Assembly (NCBI RefSeq): GCF_020514095.1
Contig: NZ_VTKY01000002.1
Location: 1-64,000 of the forward strand
Reading direction: 5' to 3'
Origin: Synechococcus sp. MU1643
Lineage (GTDB): Bacteria; Cyanobacteriota; Cyanobacteriia; PCC-6307; Cyanobiaceae
Length of the DNA stretch: 64,000 nt
The first letter of the stretch is position 1. Every line of letters starts with the position of its first letter. Both the position numbers and the translations under genes were made by a program. Positions 53,138-57,961 of the stretch are shown one piece after another. The notes beneath the pieces were generated by a model that saw nothing but the letters and a program-made list of their open reading frames with translations, was not told where the DNA came from and did no database searches.

Positions 53138-53513
53138 ATGGCTTCTGGGTCTGACTCTCCTGGCTGCCGTGTTGATGGCTGGCTGCCAAAGCAAGCAACC
53201 CGCGACGCCTGCTAACACACCGACGCCACTCGTCTCCAGTTGCCTCGGCAACTTCCGCATGGATGACCTGAAGCTGATGGTTGAACGCTGTGATGAGGCC
53301 ATCGAGCAGACACCAGATCAGGCCGATCTGCATCGGGACCGCGCCCTTGTCTTGACCCTGCTTGGCAATCAAGCCAAAGCCTGCGAAGACGTCTCGTTGG
53401 CACAGTCGCTGCTGAAGCGGTCGAGCCAGCCGGTCGACCCAATGCTGCAGCACGAACTGCAGGTGCGTCAGAGCACCTGCAAACAATCCCGCACCATGGC
53501 GGAGAGTGATTGA
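53138..53513 (+). pseudogene. Small lipoprotein gene with an apparent frameshift at its start
   Basis: The body (53142-53513) encodes LLGLTLLAAVLMAGC, a clear lipoprotein signal and lipobox, then about 110 residues with a helical repeat-like domain (MDDLKLMVERCDEAIEQTPDQADLHRDRALVLTLLGN, TPR-like). No ATG, GTG or TTG lies in frame where a signal peptide should begin. ATG 53138 would fit perfectly if one G after it were missing (M-LLGLTLLAAV). So either a one-base insertion has broken the start, or a rare CTG start is used, or the sequence has an error. It overlaps the convergent helicase gene by 46 bp. Confidence 0.6.
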
Positions 53514-55096
53514 CGTTGCAGGGACAAGCGCCGAGGCCCCAGCAACACCTCGATCCGTTCCGCCTTGCTCGCCAACAAACCATCCACCAGCTGATCCGCT
53601 GCGCCGAGCTGCAGCCAATGGCAAGTCAAGCCATCCCCCATCCCCAAACGATGACAGCGGTCTTCGGCTTGGTCGAGGTCGCCTGGCGTCCAGGGGCGTT
53701 CCAACAACACCACATGACGGGCCCGGTGCAGGGTGAAGCCGAGAGCACCGGTACCAAAGGTGGCAAGCAGACAATCGTTCTGACCCTGCTGAAACCGATC
53801 CACACTCTCCTGACGTTCAGCAGGGCGCTGGCGACCGGTTAACAACTCGCCGCCGATGGTTTGCTGCAACAACTGCAATGGGGCCACAAAGCCACTGAAC
53901 AGCACCACCGCCTCCCCTTGCCGGCGCAGTGACTCAACCAGCTGCTGGGCCTCCGGCAATTTGAATTCCGCAGCGATCTGACGCATGGAGGTGAGGAGAG
54001 CCAGATGCTCAGCATCCCGTCGCACCTCTCCGAGACGGGCCCGACGTCGGTAGTCATCCAGCACCAGCTCAACACGATGATCGAAGCCTGTGAGCTCAGC
54101 CTCCGACAGCAGCACAGGGTGAAGACTTCGCTGCTTGGGAGGAAGGTCGACCACCTGCTGCTTGCGGCGATGCAGGATCAACGGTCGACTCAGGCGACGC
54201 AGCTCCTCCAGCTGACTGGCTCCGGAAGCCTGCCAGCGTTTACCGGTTCGACCCTCCCGCCAGTGCCCCTGGCAATACCTCTCCTCGAACTGGCGTTGAT
54301 CCCGCGCAATTGGATGGTCCATGGCCGCAAGCAGGGGATACAGCTGGGACGGACGACCGTTCTTCATTGGGGTTCCCGTGAGCATCCAGATCGCCCGCAG
54401 GCGGGGATGACGGGCTAGACGCAGCAAAGCAGCCGTACGCTGCGCCTGAAGTGACTGTGCGTAATGCGCTTCATCCACCACCAGAAGCGTTCCCGCTGGC
54501 GGGAGGGTGTCGGGCAGGCGAGCCCAGCTCACCAACTCAAGCTCAACCCCAAGGGCCTCTGATTCCCGGCGCCAGTGGGGATGCAGACCAACGGGAGCCA
54601 CCACAAGCAACCGCACCTCAGCGCAGCGCATCAGGGCACGGGCCGCCAACAGAGCCGTAAGGGTCTTTCCTAGCCCCATCTCATCGGCCAGAACGGCGCC
54701 GCGACGGGCCAGGAGCCAACGGACACCAGAGCGTTGATGACGCAGAGGCCGTCGACCATCCTGCAGAGCTTCGTCAAGATCTGCTGCGGCCACAAGGGTC
54801 CGGTGCGGGGGCAGCGGGGGCAGGGGGTGCTGGCACCAATCAAGCCACTGCTGCAAAGCAGAGCTGACAGGGAAACGGCGCCCGAGGGCCTGCTGAAGTG
54901 CACCAGCGGCGGCCAATGGGAAATCCCAGCCATAGCCGGGGCCGATCCAACGCCCCCTGGGCTTGATCCGACGCAACTGGGACTGGGTCACCGCATCAAA
55001 CGGGCTTACCACGCGGATCAGTCCTGCTGTAGAGAGATCCAGGTAGCAAGTCAATGTGGGATTTGACGGCACCAGCAGCCCCCCACAAACAATCAC
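53468..55096 (-). CDS. SNF2-family helicase with N-terminal HARP-like domain
   Basis: A 542-residue superfamily 2 ATPase. Residues about 34-76 (FDAVTQSQLRRIKPRGRWIG...YGWDFPLAAAGAL) resemble the HARP domain of SMARCAL1-type annealing helicases. Motif I is ADEMGLGKT (137-145), motif II VVDEAH (about 207-211), motif III LTGTPMKN, and the C-terminal lobe has LATFGTGALGFTLHRARHVVLLERPWTPGDLDQAEDRCHRLG (motifs V and VI). HARP proteins rewind or remodel stalled forks; here that is inference. Its own start could be slightly later. Neighbouring genes are a convergent lipoprotein and, divergently, an HNH nuclease. Confidence 0.88.
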   Translation of the reverse strand: MIVCGGLLVPSNPTLTCYLDLSTAGLIRVVSPFDAVTQSQLRRIKPRGRWIGPGYGWDFPLAAAGALQQALGRRFPVSSALQQWLDWCQHPLPPLPPHRTLVAAADLDEALQDGRRPLRHQRSGVRWLLARRGAVLADEMGLGKTLTALLAARALMRCAEVRLLVVAPVGLHPHWRRESEALGVELELVSWARLPDTLPPAGTLLVVDEAHYAQSLQAQRTAALLRLARHPRLRAIWMLTGTPMKNGRPSQLYPLLAAMDHPIARDQRQFEERYCQGHWREGRTGKRWQASGASQLEELRRLSRPLILHRRKQQVVDLPPKQRSLHPVLLSEAELTGFDHRVELVLDDYRRRARLGEVRRDAEHLALLTSMRQIAAEFKLPEAQQLVESLRRQGEAVVLFSGFVAPLQLLQQTIGGELLTGRQRPAERQESVDRFQQGQNDCLLATFGTGALGFTLHRARHVVLLERPWTPGDLDQAEDRCHRLGMGDGLTCHWLQLGAADQLVDGLLASKAERIEVLLGPRRLSLQRQSLSAMVRDCLQVL

Positions 55097-55233: not shown

Positions 55234-55629
55234 ATGCATAGCAGGGACGCGGTTTTTCTCGACGAACTCTGCCCCAAATTACGCGTCCGAAGATGGCGAC
55301 AGTCTCTTCACACTTTTACCGGTCAAAGTTGCATTTACTGCGGCAAACCTTCTGAATCAATTGATCACATTCACCCCCAGTCCAAAGGGGGGTCAAGCGT
55401 TACTGAAAACTGTGTGCCGGCGTGTCTGTCTTGCAACGGCCGCAAATCTGACGCCGACGTTTTCGACTGGTACCGGCGACAGCGCTTTTATGACCCACGC
55501 CGCGCCATGGCGATTCGGGCCTGGATGGATGGCGACCTGCGACTCGCCGTTCGCCTGCTGCAGTGGGCCCAACCGGATCAGCCCATCAACGAGCCGAACG
55601 ACATCTCGATCGCGGCTCAGGCTGCCTGA
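55234..55629 (+). CDS. HNH endonuclease
   Basis: A 131-residue protein with a complete HNH/McrA-type fold. A first Cys pair CIYCG (Cys33, Cys36) is followed by catalytic DH (Asp44-His45) in SIDHIHPQSKGG, the Asn at position 59 (TENC), and the second Cys pair in CLSCNGRKSD. All zinc and metal residues are intact, so it is probably active. A tail of about 60 residues follows, with a basic-aromatic stretch FDWYRRQRFYDPRRAMAIRAWM. It is unclear whether it serves repair, restriction or a mobile element; no intron or phage genes are adjacent. It diverges from the HARP helicase by about 137 bp. Confidence 0.85.
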   Translation: MHSRDAVFLDELCPKLRVRRWRQSLHTFTGQSCIYCGKPSESIDHIHPQSKGGSSVTENCVPACLSCNGRKSDADVFDWYRRQRFYDPRRAMAIRAWMDGDLRLAVRLLQWAQPDQPINEPNDISIAAQAA

Positions 55630-55832: not shown

Positions 55833-56801
55833 ATGCTTGCCGATCTTGTCAAGCGGTCGCAGCCGCTGGCGGCTGAGGCGAAGCTGCTGGTGCTGGGCGG
55901 CGGATACAGCGGACGTTGTCTGGCCAACCTGGCTCGAGCACTTGGAACACCGGTGCTCTGCACCCGCCGCTCCCTCGACTCTGCCGAGGCAGATCTACTC
56001 TTCGACAGCAACGGTCAAGAGCAGCTCGACCCCGCTGTCCTGGAGGGCGTAACCCATCTGCTGTCCACCATCCCCCCGGATCGCGAAGGCAACGATCCGG
56101 TCTTGTCGAAGCTGCTGCCAACGCTCAGAAACCTGCCGCTGCGTTGGGCGGGCTATCTCTCCACCACAGGGGTTTACGGCGATCGTCAGGGCCGTTGGGT
56201 GTCGGAGCAGGACGACCCAGCGCCGGCGCTGAACCGCAGCATGCGCCGCCTCAACTGCGAAAAAACTTGGTTGCGCTCAGGTCTGCCGATCCAGATTCTG
56301 CGTCTGCCAGGCATTTATGGCCCGGGCCGATCGGTGCTCAACGGCCTAGAGCAAGGTCGTGCACGCTTGATTGACAAGCCCGGCCAGGTGTTCTGTCGCA
56401 TCCACGTGGAGGACATCGCCGGGGCCTGCTGGCACCTCATGCATCGCGCTGAGCAGGGAGCTCCAGCGACCGTGGGCGACAGGACTGAGTTGAACAGAGC
56501 CGTCGTGAATGTGGTGGATGACCTCCCGGCTCCCACAGCCGAGCTGATGCGACATGCGGCAGCCCTATTGGGTTGTGCCCTGCCGCCACTGGAGCCGTTC
56601 GCCCAGATCGTGGACAGCATGAGTCCGATGGCTCAGTCGTTCTGGAGCGAGAACCGCCGCGTCAGTAACCACAAGCTCTGCCACGAGCTCGGTTACGCGT
56701 TGCTGCATCCGAACTTCCGCGTCGGGCTGCAGGATTGCTTGAACCAAGACAAACTCACTCCATCTGACCTGCGTTCTTCCCCTCGATCAGCCAACGGTTG
56801 A
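55833..56801 (+). CDS. NAD(P)-binding SDR-like protein (YeeZ type)
   Basis: A 322-residue atypical extended SDR. The Rossmann loop is LLVLGGGYSGRCLANLARALG. A central YLSTTGVYGDRQGRWVSEQD segment replaces the standard catalytic stretch, and the C-terminal half has LRLPGIYGPGRSVLNGLEQG and IHVEDIAGACWHLM, as in epimerase relatives. The Tyr-x-x-x-Lys pair is not evident (RRLNCEKTWL lies at that place), so a classical dehydrogenase reaction is doubtful. The substrate is unknown. The 3' end overlaps the small minus-strand membrane-protein gene by 47 bp. Confidence 0.78.
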   Translation: MLADLVKRSQPLAAEAKLLVLGGGYSGRCLANLARALGTPVLCTRRSLDSAEADLLFDSNGQEQLDPAVLEGVTHLLSTIPPDREGNDPVLSKLLPTLRNLPLRWAGYLSTTGVYGDRQGRWVSEQDDPAPALNRSMRRLNCEKTWLRSGLPIQILRLPGIYGPGRSVLNGLEQGRARLIDKPGQVFCRIHVEDIAGACWHLMHRAEQGAPATVGDRTELNRAVVNVVDDLPAPTAELMRHAAALLGCALPPLEPFAQIVDSMSPMAQSFWSENRRVSNHKLCHELGYALLHPNFRVGLQDCLNQDKLTPSDLRSSPRSANG

Positions 56802-56940
56802 AATCGAAGTCCTCGTCTTCCTCAGGCTGGGAAAGCCCGACATCCTCAAGGAAACGGGAGAGGTTCAGTTCGATCCAGCCATTGCTCAAGCCAGAGGCCA
56901 ATCCCACCAACAGTCACCCCAGCAACAGCAAGCGCAGCAC
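56755..56940 (-). pseudogene. Small membrane-protein gene interrupted by an in-frame TGA
   Basis: On the minus strand GTG 56940 opens LRLLLLG, a TGA (56914-56916) follows, and the same frame continues LLVGLASGLSNGWIELNLSRFLEDVGLSQPEEDEDFDFNRWLIEGKNAGQME to the stop at 56755. Across the TGA the two parts make one natural membrane helix. TGA could have been TGG (Trp). The gene could still be used from TTG 56910 or GTG 56907 as a 51-residue protein with a shortened helix. The acidic DEDFDFNRW tail strongly suggests a real conserved protein. Confidence 0.55.
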
Positions 56941-56944
56941 AGCG

Positions 56945-57961
56945 ATGGGCCCCCACGATTCCACGAACCCTAGGCATGAGCTGGTGATCGCTCTCGGCGA
57001 TCCCGCGGGCATCGGCATGGAAGTGGTGCTGAAGGCCCTCGCCTCACCCACGCTCCCCCAAGAGCTTCAACCGCTGCTGGTGGGTTGCAGACGCACGCTG
57101 ATCAGCACCCACGCGCGGCTGCAGCGGCAAACGAGCCACCCCCTTGCCGACCCTGCAGCACTCAGGATCGACGACCAACCGCTGGAGGCCAGTGTTCATC
57201 CAGGAGAACCCACCCCCAGCGGAGCCGATGCGGGGTTTCGCTGGCTCACCCGCGCCGTCGAACTGCTGCAGGAACGGGGGTCCCGCGCCCTGGTCACCGC
57301 CCCCATCGCCAAACATCTCTGGCATGCGGCCGGCCATCGCTATCCCGGGCAGACCGAACGGCTGGCTGAGTTGGCTGGACGACAGCGCTCCTCAATGCTG
57401 TTCACCGCCGTCTCTCCAACCAGCGGTTGGCGACTGAACACCTTGCTGGCCACCACCCACATCCCCCTGGGCCAGATCCCTGAGGCGCTGACCCCAGACC
57501 TGGTGCACCACAAACTGAACGTGCTGGAAGGCTTCTGTCGACGATTCACAACCAAACCACATCTGCGCATCGCCGGGCTCAATCCCCATGCCGGCGAAGC
57601 CGGTCAGCTGGGCCGCGAAGAAGCCGAATGGCTGCTGCCACTGCTGGATCAATGGCAAAAGGACCATCCTCAAGTGCAGCTGGATGGTCCCGTTCCTCCC
57701 GACACCTGCTGGATCAGCGCTGCTCGCGCTTGGCAGACCCCAAACGAGCCAGGTCCTGACGGGATTTTGGCCTTGTATCACGACCAGGGGCTTATTCCAG
57801 TGAAGCTGCTGGCCTTCGACGCTGCGGTGAACACCACCTTGGAACTGCCGTTCCTACGCACCTCCCCCGACCACGGCACCGCCTTCGACATCGCTGCCGA
57901 AGGCATCGCCAGCCCTGAGAGCACGACGGCAGCGATTCAAGCCGCCTGGGACCTGAGCTGA
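56945..57961 (+). CDS. pdxA: 4-hydroxythreonine-4-phosphate dehydrogenase
   Basis: A step of the DXP-dependent pyridoxal phosphate pathway. The frame is open further upstream, but I take ATG 56945 (MGPHDSTNPRHELVIALGDP; 338 residues), which starts just before the conserved ALGDPAGIGMEVVLKAL. The three metal-binding His are in APIAKHLWH, GLNPHAGEAG and LYHDQGLIPVK. Length is normal. The start lies 5 bp from the divergent start of the interrupted small gene, so their 5' ends share regulatory DNA. The stop is 1 bp from the accB stop. Confidence 0.96.
   Translation: MGPHDSTNPRHELVIALGDPAGIGMEVVLKALASPTLPQELQPLLVGCRRTLISTHARLQRQTSHPLADPAALRIDDQPLEASVHPGEPTPSGADAGFRWLTRAVELLQERGSRALVTAPIAKHLWHAAGHRYPGQTERLAELAGRQRSSMLFTAVSPTSGWRLNTLLATTHIPLGQIPEALTPDLVHHKLNVLEGFCRRFTTKPHLRIAGLNPHAGEAGQLGREEAEWLLPLLDQWQKDHPQVQLDGPVPPDTCWISAARAWQTPNEPGPDGILALYHDQGLIPVKLLAFDAAVNTTLELPFLRTSPDHGTAFDIAAEGIASPESTTAAIQAAWDLS

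Follow-up and report, generated by a model that had tools for sequence, protein, structure and literature searches.

Small genes near pdxA in picocyanobacteria go under odd automatic names. The locus studied here lies in a stretch of 64,000 nucleotides from Synechococcus sp. MU1643 (contig NZ_VTKY01000002.1, positions 1 to 64,000), which is called the window below. It resembles bacterial nonsense pseudogenes in its early in-frame stop within a recognisable gene, its open orthologues and a further lesion in a sister copy; it differs from them in that the window copy is without a second lesion, and in that the remnant is situated where constraint at the DNA level can preserve it. It also resembles a small protein encoded beside pdxA in the Cyanobiaceae, with which it shares the start position, the residues M-L-R, W22, the place next to pdxA and the helix segment, but the copies of the window and of Synechococcus sp. 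MU1642 carry a stop at codon 9. On sequence grounds the window copy is a broken, presumably non-working member of this pdxA-adjacent family, and we consider it probable that it represents a young pseudogene, with a 5' end that constraint on the DNA next to pdxA would help to preserve. The parts of the literature available to us on picocyanobacterial small proteins, marine Synechococcus pseudogenes, pdxA and gene loss contain nothing pointing to the small gene, the passages found in PMC5126843 do not mention pdxA, and no literature on MU1642 was found.

The split frame and its neighbours

The features of the locus are the following.

55833..56801, forward strand: convergent neighbour, resembling an epimerase/dehydratase only through weak matches, with its 3' end overlapping the small gene
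56755..56940, reverse strand: small membrane-protein gene (61 codons and a stop codon), in which codon 9 is a premature stop
56940-56938, reverse strand: GTG start codon of the small gene
56914..56916, reverse strand: premature in-frame TGA at codon 9, where the closest intact relatives have TGT (Cys)
56755..56910, reverse strand: open frame of 51 amino acids remaining after the stop, with the possible restart codons TTG (56910) and GTG (56907)
56757-56755, reverse strand: natural TGA stop of the small gene
56945..57961, forward strand: pdxA, the divergent neighbour, with a likely ATG start (NF002744, 518.9 bits at a cut-off of 425; TIGR00557)

Translation of 56940-56755 on the reverse strand gives VLRLLLLG, the premature stop, LLVGLASGLSNGWIELNLSRFLEDVGLSQPEEDEDFDFNRWLIEGKNAGQME and the natural stop; the frame opens with VLRLLLLG, stop, LLVGLASGLSNGW and ends with ...QME. 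The first-pass annotation had described a frame split by a TGA, and this observation is confirmed, the TGA at 56916-56914 as well as the TTG at 56910 and the GTG at 56907 being located in the sequence. According to the frame translation, initiation at the normal GTG would yield only eight residues before the TGA. Downstream of codon 9 the frame of the window copy contains no further lesion.

The same annotation had placed the gene antisense to the 5' region of pdxA, which is not supported. The small gene starts at 56940 on the reverse strand and the likely pdxA ATG is located at 56945 on the forward strand; with this pdxA start the two genes are divergent and adjoin each other with a gap of 4 nt and no overlap; only a longer mechanical pdxA frame beginning at TTG 56798 would cover the small gene. 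Among the 19 genomes in which the start-to-start gap was measured, one of them the window, it is always 4 or 5 nt, an estimate that leans short as the script took the pdxA ATG nearest to the small gene. Measured to the GDPxGIG motif of pdxA, which makes the distance free of the choice of ATG, the small gene is 52-64 nt away in 20 out of 21 genomes from other genera and 490 nt away in the remaining one (G148). As to the supposed overlap with the 3' end of an SDR gene, the overlap itself stands (47 nt, the neighbour ending at 56801), but the epimerase-type identity of this neighbour is weak: its match to Pfam PF01370 (E 0.012) is below the cut-off, and that to the reductase model NF058621 of NCBIfam (E 0.00063) is far below it.

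Further away from the small gene, a forward frame of 131 amino acids (55234-55629) resembles by eye an HNH endonuclease, and a reverse frame of 542 amino acids (53468-55096) a SNF2-type helicase.

Conservation and distribution of the small protein

With the 51 residues after the stop as query, matches were obtained in 26 out of 34 genomes of the same genus, among them the window (E 1.7e-30 for the window itself and 3.2e-27 for the best relative). Eight same-genus genomes gave no initial match. In five of these pdxA was found and a reading of the translations revealed degraded copies, while pdxA did not turn up in G009, G017 and G018 (53-77% complete), which stand outside the 31 readable loci. 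These 31 loci comprise 22 open frames, one of them shortened by an in-frame deletion (G004) and another extended in its tail (G025), three frames with a stop at codon 9, one with a TAG at codon 50 (G005) and the five degraded copies. Uninterrupted frames exist in relatives of the window species, and the open-frame orthologues have their start upstream of the stop position instead of all starting beyond it, which bears out the earlier view that a TGA splits a small conserved membrane protein.

Nineteen of the 22 open frames were combined in a same-genus alignment and profile (A1), leaving out G002 (protein the same as in G024), G025 (longer tail) and G031 (reference cut short). This profile matches the window frame, TGA included, with an E value of 2.4e-30, and at a threshold of E up to 0.01 it has matches in 232 of the 400 family genomes, spread over 39 out of 59 genera. 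Fourteen genomes of genus g17 (1.6-1.7 Mb) are listed without a match, which suggests that this genus lacks the small gene; another 125 genomes without a match stand outside this listing. The class-level sample contains 194 genomes; 14 have a match, and 12 of these belong to the Cyanobiaceae. The two matches outside this family (E 1.4e-4 and 3.0e-4) are weak and partial, lie inside frames of 317 and 322 amino acids and were treated as chance. The genomes listed for the order-level search all belong to the Cyanobiaceae.

All 26 same-genus matches have a start codon at the position used in the window, if the frame is read across the stop where one is present: ATG in G011, TTG in G016 and G031, and GTG in the rest. 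In other genera ATG stands at this position in each of the 21 genomes inspected singly (20 hand-picked from the list of profile matches, with G134 and G167 chosen because stops had been reported in them). The residues M1, L2, R3 and W22 are invariant across the 27 rows of a wider alignment (A2), and M-L-R is invariant in A1 and A2 alike. In intact relatives the encoded protein has about 46 to 78 amino acids, with one membrane helix at its N-terminus and a tail that varies and is often acidic. Judged from this conservation, the small protein is encoded by a genuine gene. A frame that is no gene and was held open by its neighbours could explain the 47-nt overlap and the constraint at synonymous sites of the first 15 codons (see below); it is nevertheless highly improbable, considering that the start, M-L-R, the hydrophobic stretch and W22 are retained across genera despite change in the DNA, and that about three quarters of the small gene are free of other likely coding regions.

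For the intact protein of G022, AlphaFold2 predicts a helix comprising residues 2-19 (block pLDDT 89 and 83) and a less certain remainder (mean 72.1, pTM 0.32). Codon 9 corresponds to the middle of the predicted helix, which is thus interrupted in the window, and the proposal of one hydrophobic helix spanning the stop agrees with this model. Searches of Pfam and NCBIfam gave no model for the small protein and only weak scattered matches, and a sequence search of the PDB gave no convincing relative. Four out of 27 orthologues weakly match FUN14 (PF04930), probably via the hydrophobic stretch, but the best E value is 0.045 and the first member shows no match, and membership in this family was treated as chance. 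Our guess from the model is that the intact protein may act as a membrane-anchored accessory protein which cells can dispense with.

The stop at codon 9

Codon 9 is TGT (Cys) in 12 of the 26 same-genus matches, a Leu codon in 11 and a stop in three, namely TGA in the window and in G028 and TAG in G020. The change from TGG (Trp) to TGA assumed in the first-pass annotation was rejected, as Trp occurs at this codon in none of the 26 matches and in none of the 27 rows of A2. G020 (L026 / L084) is a third species, represented by a draft that is 83% complete, and here an ATG follows immediately after the TAG.

G028 is Synechococcus sp. MU1642, since 5001 of 5001 bases of the locus are identical to the named contig. 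Its copy of the small gene carries the same TGA and in addition a downstream 4-nt deletion which shifts the frame. In the pdxA tree the window and MU1642 form a pair with modest support (91/76), and the intact G022 adjoins this pair (three rows, 96/98). Between the window and MU1642, dS is 0.091 for pdxA and 0.133 for the convergent neighbour; the pdxA value between the window and G022 is about the same (0.098). It is likely that the TGA arose once, in the common ancestor of the window species and MU1642, although this depends on the weakly supported fork (91/76). Most likely, codon 9 of this ancestor would have changed from a Cys codon to TGA. A single wrong base in sequencing or assembly would account for the window alone; that the gene is in truth intact is extremely improbable, because MU1642 is another species and two species that far apart at pdxA share the TGA.

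The Cys codon (TGT) in the nearest relatives is what could be expected if the UGA were read through or recoded, with for instance Cys or Sec inserted at codon 9. However, the whole genome contains no tRNA-Sec above the Rfam cut-off, the best of 11 matches scoring 46.5 bits versus 47; in the controls, matches below the cut-off occurred in 14 of 14 genomes, with 5 over the cut-off, and such low matches mean little. Of the 11 match places, 8 had loci, where ARAGORN finds ordinary tRNAs for Ser, Leu, Gly, Tyr and Thr, and the place of the best match is a tRNA-Ser. A selenocysteine protein was rejected on these grounds. The TAG in G020 and the Leu in other relatives also oppose a device specific for Cys or Sec, and we regard readthrough as scarcely credible.

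A restart after the stop would turn the first eight residues into a leader, with reinitiation at TTG 56910 or GTG 56907 giving a protein of about 50 amino acids. Both codons are found within three codons downstream of the stop, the frame after it is open, codons 10-34 are the same as in the intact G022, and G020 offers an ATG directly after a stop at the same codon. Such a protein would, however, lack about half of the predicted helix 2-19 as well as the invariant M-L-R; the MU1642 copy with the same stop is frameshifted after it, and in G020 two residues invariant in A1 (R3 and D33) are altered. We therefore consider a restart to be unlikely. It could further be speculated that codon 9 is a switch point to such a leader-plus-restart arrangement, in which a short form without the full membrane anchor replaces the anchored one, given that two lineages have different stops (TGA and TAG) with a possible start within three codons. 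This is very unlikely. That two lineages have a stop at one and the same codon deserves mention but is weak evidence, because a single step would turn 18 codons in the G022 gene, and 12 in that of G021, into a stop, and coincidences of this kind are not rare. Overall, neither restart nor readthrough finds positive support.

A probable young pseudogene and repeated loss

Translation of the window copy, begun at the normal start, would halt after eight residues, and the protein is probably not made. The TGA shared with MU1642, whose copy has acquired a second lesion, and the upstream starts of the open orthologues speak for a young pseudogene. Against it stand the lack of a second lesion in the window and codons 10-34, which are identical to G022; furthermore, the window and MU1642 differ in codons 1-34 by two changes, both synonymous, and this fits continued selection on the protein as well. 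After codon 34, one synonymous and five non-synonymous nucleotide changes separate the window from G022, similar to the intact pair G013/G033 with none and four. Because codons 35-61 are equally variable in intact pairs and in the window, and the substitutions are too few, such counts cannot separate a dead from a living copy.

Synonymous change was compared in nine intact relatives, these being the close relatives for which the 5-kb region was in hand, with G004 excluded for its deletion. Differences per synonymous site amount to 0.080 in codons 1-15, versus 0.357 in codons 16-34, 0.360 in codons 35-46 and 0.179 in codons 47-61. For pdxA the value is 0.270 overall and 0.202 in its first 15 codons, while the convergent neighbour has 0.306 over its whole length and 0.103 in the final 30 codons. 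Overlapping windows of 15 codons are as low as codons 1-15 of the small gene in 4 out of 323 cases for pdxA and in 4 out of 307 for the convergent gene. Codons 1-15 (56896-56940) combine low synonymous change with a 5' end that is kept in four of the five degraded copies. The likely reason is that about 4 nt separate the start codon of the small gene from that of pdxA and that the two genes would share control DNA, which suggests that codons 1-15 hold a control element shared with pdxA; this reading uses the predicted pdxA start (ATG 56945), and a consensus scan of both strands from 56700 to 57050 found neither a promoter motif nor a terminator. The tidy state of the remnant would then be due to the little time elapsed and to its position, with the 5' end in the upstream and start region of pdxA and the 3' end in the neighbouring gene. 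The reduced synonymous change is observed, whereas its cause is what we infer.

In the degraded copies the start can still be recognised (VLRFLLLGLLLV in G001 and G003, for instance), but the sequence after it is unrelated or runs into early stops; four of the five retain about a dozen recognisable residues at the 5' end, and G029 retains fewer. On the pdxA tree, several forks of which are weak, the breaks fall in several separate places: the window/MU1642 pair, G020, G032, G005 and the group of G029, G014, G001 and G003, inside which G026 is intact. As some drafts are incomplete (G020 83%, G014 77%), lesions seen in a single genome could be errors. Most likely the small gene is lost now and then across these relatives, and the window holds a probably recent dead copy.

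Taken alone, a single broken copy is ordinary. Here a small protein of many Cyanobiaceae genera, for which neither Pfam nor NCBIfam has a model, is repeatedly broken, and the intact, freshly broken and degraded copies form a set for asking what the protein does. Stops are also found in other genera, at codon 22 in G167 and at codon 47 in G134.
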